64,000 bases of DNA from Naegleria lovaniensis (lineage: Eukaryota > Heterolobosea > Eutetramitea > Acrasida > Naegleriidae). Below the pieces are notes generated by a model. It was not told where the DNA came from, ran no database searches, and saw nothing but the letters and a program-made list of their open reading frames with translations. Positions 38,498 to 64,000 of this stretch are shown one piece after another. Within the stretch, counting starts at the first letter, position 1. The number at the start of each line of letters is the position of its first letter. A program made the position numbers and the translations under genes. The stretch lies in contig NW_025407861.1 of NCBI RefSeq assembly GCF_003324165.1, positions 364,143 to 428,142 of the forward strand, read 5' to 3'.

Positions 38498-39145
38498 TCA
38501 TGCTGACAATACTGGCTTTCTGAATGGGCTTGTGTTGGGAAGACGATTGTACAACTTAACCGAATGATTGATCAATGTTTTGGATTGCAGGACATTGTTT
38601 CTACCCAGGTTCAGATTGGTAAGCAGTAGGAAGTTTTGGCAAGTTGAAGGACCGAGATGTCAAGCTGAACCATGGATTACTGGTTCGTGGATCTAGATGA
38701 TATTTTGTCCAGTCTTCCATTCAATTGTCTTGCTCACTTTCTTGTTGGTCATTGAGGATCATTCCAACGTCATTCAGTGAATAAAGATTTCTTGTTCGAT
38801 GGCATTATGAGAATAAGTGTGGTTCTATCATTTGTAGATTGGAAACATTTGAGGTAGGTATCTGCAGATGACGAGCTTGAGGGCTCAAAAGAAAGTGCTT
38901 GAGAGCTCATTCTCTTCACACAATCGGGTCTGGGAAACATTTCGAACGCAATTTTTGGACAATTCGACAATGACAATACCAAGAAATGACAAAGATGTGG
39001 ACGAAATGATGAAGAAGAGATGAGTTGTGATCAAATCACTTGAACATTAATAAACCAAGCATCAAAGGTTGTGACAATAGTATTTGCAAACACGTTTAAT
39101 GTGATTTGATTTTGATTGTTTACTTGACAAACACATTTCCAGAAA
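38498..39145. other. Degraded mobile-element region
   Basis: No intact frame. Two near-palindromes occur, TTGAGGGCTCAA at 38877-38888 and TTGAGAGCTCA at 38899-38909, related to TTGAGGCTCAAT copies downstream of the Fanzor remnant. It probably holds the decayed N-terminal half of the nuclease gene and/or element sequence. Confidence 0.35.
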
Positions 39146-39835
39146 ATGACTGCTGTTCTATCTTGTCACCAAGACATGTCGCAATACCATGTTTCTTCAT
39201 GGCAACGGTAACTTGCCGAGAACCAAGCCCCTCAACATTCAGGACAAGTTGTAGCATTGGATCCAGGAGTAAGAACATTTCAGACCACTTTTGATTTGAA
39301 ATGGGGCTAAGGAGGTGCCGAAAGAATTGGTAGATTATGTTTCTCGTATGACAAGTTGCAATCGAAGTGGTCTCAACCAGAAGTCAGACATTGCAAAAGA
39401 TACAAGTACAAGAGAGCAGGAAGAAGAATTCAACAAAAGATTAGAAATATTGTGGATGATCTACACAAGAAACTGTGTTTGTGGCTATGTCGAAACTACC
39501 AAGTGATCTTACTTCCTTCGTTTGAGACTCTGAAAATGGTAAAGAAACTCCATAGGAGAATTAATAGCAAGACAGCAAGAAAAATGTTGACTTGGTCACA
39601 TTATAGATTCAAGCAAAGATTGCTTCACAAAGCTAGAGAGCATCCGTGGACATACATTTATATTGTCAACGAAGCGTACACATCCAAAACTTGCTCATGT
39701 TGTGGACATATTTATACAGTTGGATCATCCGAAGTGTTTCATTGTCCATCCTGTGACTCAATTTTTAACAGAGATATCAATGGAGCAAGAAATATTCTTC
39801 TTCGATTCCTTACTACTCAAAGAATTAGTTTTTGA
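39146..39835 (+). pseudogene. Fanzor (eukaryotic TnpB-like RNA-guided nuclease) remnant
   Basis: The frame from about 39212 to 39835 encodes the C-terminal half of a TnpB/OrfB-like nuclease of the Fanzor type. In order: ENQAPQHSG, then RuvC-I VALDPGVRTFQTTF (Asp codon 39260); RIGRLCFSYDKLQSK; KRAGRRIQQKIRNIVDDLHK; RuvC-II VILLPSFETLKM (Glu codon 39524); NEAYTSKTCSCCG...CPSC zinc ribbon; and RuvC-III NRDINGARNI (Asp codon 39773). All three catalytic acidic residues and four zinc cysteines remain. In-frame TAA codons lie at 39209-39211 and 39308-39310. The second interrupts a conserved stretch between RuvC-I and the bridge, so the copy is probably inactive. The N-terminal half is not recognisable; the ATG at 39146 is only the frame start. 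Known active Fanzors include ones from Naegleria. Confidence 0.85.
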
Positions 39836-40090
39836 GCACCTTGTGTGCGTTGAGGCTCAATGGGTCCTTTCCCCTGGCTTTCACTCATTGAGTGTTTGCT
39901 TGCAAGATAAGCACTTTGTTCGATTTGTTTGTTTTGTTCAAATTGTTGATTTAAATAAAGGCGTGATTAGGTGTATTCCATTCGTAACGAACACTTCGTC
40001 CTGTTGATCTCTCTCTCATGTGCTGAAATGAGCATCAAGGGCTTCACAGGAAAATCATTGAGGCTCAATCGATTGTTGCAATTTTAAAAA
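39836..40090 (+). other. Structured region downstream of Fanzor remnant; candidate guide-RNA/element end
   Basis: In TnpB and Fanzor loci the guide RNA commonly overlaps the 3' end of the nuclease gene and the element end. Here a 7-bp stem CTCAATG (39856-39862) / CATTGAG (39886-39892) encloses a C/T-rich loop. The near-palindrome TTGAGGCTCAAT occurs at 39850-39861 and again at 40058-40069. These are compatible with an RNA scaffold or element termini, but no boundary or target-site duplication can be shown. Confidence 0.2.
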
Positions 40091-63300: not shown

Positions 63301-63435
63301 CCAACATGTCTATGAAGTATTATTGAATGTGTATTGATACTTGCTGAGATAATTGATAAATGTTGATTTGGAGTGTTTGAAAAATTGTGGTCTTAGTCTC
63401 TTTACATGGGTTTGATAAAAATTCTACTCTTTGGG
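60322..63435. other. Gene-poor subtelomeric region
   Basis: About 3.1 kb with no supported gene. From 60440 to 60530 there are palindromic GGTCAAA motifs, including GGTCAAATTTTTGACC at 60458-60473. From 60526 to 61207 weak minus-strand frames with stops may be a decayed gene. From 61200 on the sequence is AT-rich with many ATGATCAT-type words, and the plus strand is strikingly T/G-rich and C-poor towards the telomere. Short ORFs here look random. Confidence 0.6.
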
Positions 63436-63500
63436 TTTATTCTTTGGGTTTATTCTTTGGGTTTATTCTTTGGGTTTATTCTTTGGGTTTATTCTTTGGG
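63436..63500 (+). repeat. Five 13-bp transitional repeats
   Basis: Unit TTTATTCTTTGGG repeated five times without change. Each unit contains one TTTGGG telomeric core plus TTTATTC, bridging unique sequence to the telomere. Confidence 0.95.
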
Positions 63501-64000
63501 TTTGGGTTTGGGTTTGGGTTTGGGTTTGGGTTTGGGTTTGGGTTTGGGTTTGGGTTTGGGTTTGGGTTTGGGTTTGGGTTTGGGTTTGGGTTTGGGTTTG
63601 GGTTTGGGTTTGGGTTTGGGTTTGGGTTTGGGTTTGGGTTTGGGTTTGGGTTTGGGTTTGGGTTTGGGTTTGGGTTTGGGTTTGGGTTTGGGTTTGGGTT
63701 TGGGTTTGGGTTTGGGTTTGGGTTTGGGTTTGGGTTTGGGTTTGGTTTGGGTTTGGGTTTGGGTTTGGGTTTGGGTTTGGGTTTGGGTTTGGGTTTGGGT
63801 TTGGGTTTGGGTTTGGGTTTGGGTTTGGGTTTGGGTTTGGGTTTGGGTTTGGGTTTGGGTTTGGGTTTGGGTTTGGGTTTGGGTTTGGGTTTGGGTTTGG
63901 GTTTGGGTTTGGGTTTGGGTTTGGGTTTGGGTTTGGGTTTGGGTTTGGTTTGGGTTTGGGTTTGGGTTTGGGTTTGGGTTTGGGTTGGGTTTGGTTGGTT
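63495..64000 (+). repeat. Telomere, (TTTGGG)n
   Basis: Nearly uninterrupted TTTGGG for ~506 bp (about 84 units) with single-G losses near 63745 and 63948 and degenerate units at the extreme end. The G-rich strand runs 5' to 3' outward, the orientation of a right chromosome end. This marks the window end as a chromosome terminus. Confidence 0.95.

Follow-up and report, generated by a model that had tools for sequence, protein, structure and literature searches.

A truncated, stop-bearing Fanzor2 remnant and its sibling elements in the genome of Naegleria lovaniensis

Introduction

Saito et al. 2023 (PMC10432273), as far as the accessible part of that paper goes, call the biological role of Fanzors unknown. 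The same part describes NlovFz2 from Naegleria lovaniensis, which uses CCG as TAM, contains a disordered segment of 96 residues and is presented there with no report of inverted repeats or a transposase. According to the available text of Yoon et al. 2023 (PMC10711439), the Fanzor fingerprint consists of a DPG motif and a glutamate placed six residues before the zinc finger, an active site also possessed by the cyanobacterial IS607 TnpBs termed 'pro-Fanzor'. Structural work locates the Fanzor glutamate in a loop ahead of the TNB domain (PMC11423790, available part), and a C4 zinc ribbon followed by RD appears as a Fanzor motif in the accessible portion of Bao and Jurka 2013 (PMC3627910).

Here, we analyse a locus in N. 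lovaniensis within the window, i.e. a stretch of 64 kb (C40:364143-428142) whose end coincides with the contig end. We conclude with high confidence that this locus is a fossil: a Fanzor2 transposable element that has lost its 5' part, carries a stop and probably belongs to the NlovFz2 family. Its intact siblings in the genome look like the Fanzor kind that has already been studied.

Results and discussion

The window contains the 3' portion of a Fanzor2 element

The element remnant extends from 39218 to 39963 (+) of the window and comprises the 3' part of the gene, an untranslated region and the right end. Its borders follow from blastn with the intact sibling L008 (92% over L008:1348-2122, corresponding to window 39218-39964, the only stretch of L008 that matched) and from lining up the right end with other copies, an alignment that also assigns the GGCG terminus to 39960-39963 (+). 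Tblastn with the intact 495-residue protein reveals a degenerate coding remnant at 39215-39832 (+), equivalent to residues 285-495 (7.4e-128, 92%). A sequence-only reading of this DNA had delimited the feature as the frame 39212-39835 (+), which contains ALDPGV, LPSFETLK, CSCCG/CPSC and NRDINGARN and is interrupted by TAA at 39308-39310 (+); the frame was correct, whereas homology begins at 39215-39218 and not at 39212. The part following the TAA matches PF07282 (7.3e-19), NCBIfam NF040570 guided_TnpB (1.7e-27; 96.7 bits, just below the cut-off of 100, the sequence being a fragment) and PDB 9b0l 'TnpB-like protein L79' (5.5e-20), which excludes chance resemblance.

The left end of the element and more than half of the gene are absent from this copy. 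A complete protein with WED/REC and RuvC parts was not found in it, but solely residues 285-495 with a stop, and the copy cannot make a nuclease. The sequence-only reading had considered that the N-terminal half might reside in upstream exons of a functional gene, and the retained RuvC residues would agree with this. However, neither tblastn nor blastn detected N-terminal homology in the 64 kb (the only further tblastn match of the intact protein in the window, 14 residues with E 1.7, is taken as chance), and upstream exons are therefore not supported. Moreover, intact siblings consist of one uninterrupted frame, the remnant has an in-frame TAA, and the stretch upstream is made up of other repeats, which renders a split functional gene extremely improbable.

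At the contig end, the window carries a TTTGGG array of ~84 units (63495-63994), which follows a 13-base repeat (63428-63503). The array is read as a telomere, and the Fanzor2 remnant lies ~24 kb from it. Rfam yielded no match within the window.

Active-site residues are retained, with the catalytic glutamate at 39671

The DPG of RuvC-I is read at 39260-39268 (+) and occurs in 57 of 70 relatives. The zinc ribbon spans 39692-39754 (+), with cysteines at 39692, 39701, 39743 and 39752, and is the part recognised by PF07282. It is followed by the RuvC-III aspartate of the RD motif at 39773-39775 (+), a position held by Asp in 67/70 relatives. These three motifs, located in one frame with the TAA, had been described correctly before. 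The RuvC-II glutamate, which had been assigned to 39524-39526 (+), was misplaced: we reject E39524 as the Fanzor catalytic residue on the basis of the published definition and of the relatives, 39 of 70 of which have Glu there. In a six-row alignment, a second family of the same genome has N at this position, and the relative from a Microcoleus phage has K.

The published position corresponds to the alternative RuvC-II glutamate (Ealt) at 39671-39673 (+), six residues ahead of the first zinc-ribbon cysteine. The spacing is exact in the window copy, in which E39671 is followed by AYTSKT and then Cys 39692, and the residue is invariant in the six-row alignment. All 70 relatives have Glu here, a count biased by the use of the Ealt motif as search motif in the scans for relatives (104 loci, 37 of which were dropped ahead of the count as short, duplicate or containing stops); among 72 rows, E[AQ]YTSK is absent from only 4, each of which has E. 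Given this bias, it is the published definition that carries the point, and the loop placement of the glutamate, as far as given in PMC11423790, is in line with E39671. With DPG, Ealt, and the C4 zinc ribbon followed by RD all present in the window copy, and with the profile and structure matches listed above, the earlier assignment to the Fanzors is borne out.

The genome harbours intact siblings, probably of the NlovFz2 family

We searched the genome of N. lovaniensis (30,690,286 bases in 97 contigs) by tblastn and obtained at least 65 matches, so that copy counts derived from it are lower bounds. The full query of 159 residues is matched, at 93-96% identity, in at least 15 scored places besides the window copy (16 with it). 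The sequence-only reading had suggested that a sibling may be active elsewhere in the genome, and intact siblings do exist: the uninterrupted 495-codon frame is present in four copies (L005, L007, L008 and L010), with pairwise dN/dS values of 0.13-0.23 for the six pairs among them. Open frames of 482, 459 and 435 codons are found in L003, L004 and L009, respectively. The element L008 measures ~2,061 bases. Its protein scores 147.3 bits against guided_TnpB, exceeds the thresholds for HTH_OrfB_IS605 and the TNB domain but not the one for OrfB_IS605 (25.4 vs 30.5), and has 116 residues ahead of the first recognised domain. The best solved relative is PDB 9b0l, which the intact sibling matches with its residues 81-485 at 1.2e-25; this TnpB-like protein L79 of a mimivirus is distant from the amoeba protein.

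As far as the accessible description of NlovFz2 goes (PMC10432273), the present family agrees with it in having CCG beside the left boundary at the sibling left ends read and a Fanzor2-type protein with an N-terminal extension; no inverted repeats were noticed here and no transposase was found. The length of the stretch before the first domain, 116 residues here compared with the 96-residue disordered segment, speaks against the assignment. The likeness is one of TAM and description, and membership of the NlovFz2 family is probable. The window copy differs from NlovFz2 in being truncated and stopped.

A second fragment shares the stop of the window copy

The TAA at 39308-39310 is also present in the fragment L024 (C40:330835-331062), which is located 72 kb away on the same contig. 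It is thus neither an error nor very recent. That a sequencing or assembly error had introduced the stop into an otherwise intact copy is also contradicted by the left part, which is missing regardless, and we give this reading next to no credence. The sequence-only reading had spoken of a recently inactivated copy: inactivation is confirmed, whereas 'recently' is too strong in view of the common TAA and the loss of the left end and most of the gene. L024 has 5 of the 9 derived bases that it covers in common with the window copy; three of these five occur in other copies too, leaving the stop base and one more base as private to the pair among the copies compared. L024 lacks a 15-base in-frame deletion at approximately 39300-39301 (+), which among the copies aligned there is confined to the window copy (L001). 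A repeat upstream of the remnant (38713-39013, +) is 95% alike to C40:332169-332473 near L024, in a different relative orientation. Duplication of a previously stopped fragment is the simplest account of the two.

Relative to the sibling majority (built from 14 copies, several of them broken themselves), the window copy carries 20 changes in 618 coding bases. Ten are synonymous and ten are not, where 76% non-synonymous changes would be expected without selection (p 0.015), so that some of the divergence may date from a time when the lineage was under selection. We also considered motif-directed insertion at the truncated left junction, where a CCG is present; it is taken as chance, because no CCG is present where L015, L020 and L024 begin on the left.

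Insertion was exact at two sites

The left end is missing from the window copy; the boundary was read in siblings. Their left end starts with TTGAAGCC (in one copy TTCAAGCC) and is preceded by CCG in 20 of 20 rows listed. As L023 and L030 are one locus, this amounts to CCG at all 19 distinct left ends read, among 37 left-end matches. The right end reads AAATAAAGGCG in 20 of the 24 distinct copies listed (our count; 20 of 24 terminate in GGCG). Inspection of 17 distinct flank pairs by eye revealed no target duplication.

Two loci reveal the target before insertion. The L022 element lies inside a gene. When its flanks are joined at CCG, an open frame of 260 residues is restored that has three PF13475 (DUF4116) stretches, the best of which (189-227) spans the join at ~199. 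Here, the CCG belonged to the target. The second case emerged when the 17 joined flank pairs were compared with the own genome, yielding 36 matches, of which 34 were known flanks and one crosses the join of L008. This match, L180 (C26:304887-304940), lies ~200 bases upstream of L008 and is a second, unoccupied version of its target. It is 91% alike to the joined flanks over 54 bases, with no gap at the join and the first 12 right-flank bases perfect, and reads CTG in place of CCG. The restored frame and the unoccupied duplicate thus demonstrate that the target was split exactly at both places.

The remaining match, at C34:74570, concerned the right flank of L014. C34:74570-74617 and L014 (C26) represent two right ends with the same host flank, which suggests a segmental duplication.

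The right end may provide a guide RNA

The region downstream of the coding remnant, 39836-39963 (+), is a putative guide-RNA (omega RNA) scaffold by predicted fold only. The right ends of 18 copies align closely, and their predicted consensus fold is multi-branched, with compensatory changes in 0/31 pairs. A 21-nt guide, the length given in the available part of Saito et al. 2023 (PMC10432273), would correspond to the host flank at 39964-39984 (+).

A copy with a dead protein might still possess a live right end, whose 'ghost' guide RNA would be loaded and used by intact Fanzor proteins of other copies. Saito et al. 2023 (PMC10432273, accessible part) describe such ghost loci for S. punctatus and name N. 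lovaniensis in a figure legend on them. Further, in 11 degraded copies (L019, L024 and L029, which do not have this stretch, are left out) the right end (L008:2020-2118) shows 12 changes in 958 bases as compared to 132 in 4,405 in their 3' coding part (Fisher p 0.0018). However, the right end is likewise slow in the 14 better copies (7 changes in 1,386 bases vs 334 in 18,766 for the whole coding region), so the bias does not single out broken copies and may predate insertion. In addition, the right end of the window copy has a short insertion that the other 17 aligned copies lack and that shifts the prediction towards a different fold. For this copy, holding to the consensus pairs costs 9.6 kcal/mol relative to its best fold, the second highest value of the 18 (1.1-7.6 kcal/mol in the others, 12.8 in L025), and its own best fold surpasses shuffled sequences weakly (z -1.78). 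The would-be guide matches perfectly nowhere else in this genome, the nearest being two places with 3 mismatches. A working guide RNA from the window copy may be left over, but use of such ghost guides is unlikely, and we retain the reading of the copy as a fossil. Right ends without a frame do exist: 8 of 40 scored right-end matches reach to within 13 bases of the end while no protein match belongs to them (our reading of the match tables), one of which, C34:73626, is ~0.9 kb from another copy.

A model for the intact element

An intact element encodes the 495-residue nuclease and would carry the guide-RNA scaffold at its right end, with the guide presumably read from flanking host DNA. Insertion splits the target exactly after CCG, and the right end of the element then places GCG where the empty site has CCG. 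Owing to this exchange, the nuclease would cut empty alleles and spare occupied ones, and copying would occur by repair. In a more far-reaching version, which appears quite unlikely, broken copies still donate guide RNAs, and RNA-guided cutting and repair copies all members of the family in trans, with no transposase dedicated to the task. A hint that a broken copy had moved comes from L011 and L012 (C4), which occupy different insertion sites and have one nonsense codon plus ten other derived bases in common. Mobilisation in trans or conversion between copies would both do. Since L011 has even more derived bases (15) in common with L015, which has no such stop, conversion is an equally good reading. 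The internal gaps of the copies, which could be read as interrupted repair, present a mixture of microhomology and filler at 23 junctions, one of which is an assembly gap.

The family represents a natural test of the role of Fanzors: its ends are sharp, its CCG boundary agrees with the motif determined biochemically, two of its insertions are exact, and a single genome holds copies that are intact, broken or without an ORF. The family is worth more than the window copy, which is a fossil of a system already known.

Relatives in cyanobacteria, phages and a second amoeba family

Long matches with 30-38% identity were obtained in Brasilonema, Microcoleus and Okeania. The cyanobacterial IS607 TnpBs have the same DPG and Ealt active site as here (Yoon et al. 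2023, PMC10711439, available part), but are prokaryotic, unlike the amoeba elements. In the one cyanobacterial neighbourhood read, the Microcoleus relative L078 overlaps a frame recognised by its sequence as an IS607-like serine recombinase, which the amoeba elements lack. Lack of target duplication and the exact joins at L022 and L008 agree with an IS607-type element, whereas its serine recombinase TnpA was not found here: a profile search of the genome ignoring introns gave no match to PF00239, with a positive control that rang in 10 of 14 cases.

Two phages also contain relatives. L074 (Microcoleus phage My-WqHQDG) is a TnpB with DPG and Ealt and 33% identity over 95% of the amoeba protein, and L075 (Vibrio phage F100) is a TnpB relative that keeps DVG, Ealt and RD, has lost the zinc-ribbon cysteines and adjoins an annotated thymidylate synthase. 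A single-protein scan of viral_contigs returned no relative.

Finally, a second TnpB/Fanzor family occupies at least 12 places in the N. lovaniensis genome and is 40-44% identical to the window copy. Three of its members, L071, L072 and L073 (C2 and C45), have identical C-terminal frames of 263 residues and are 98% alike over ~2 kb, a similarity which suggests that this family has spread recently.
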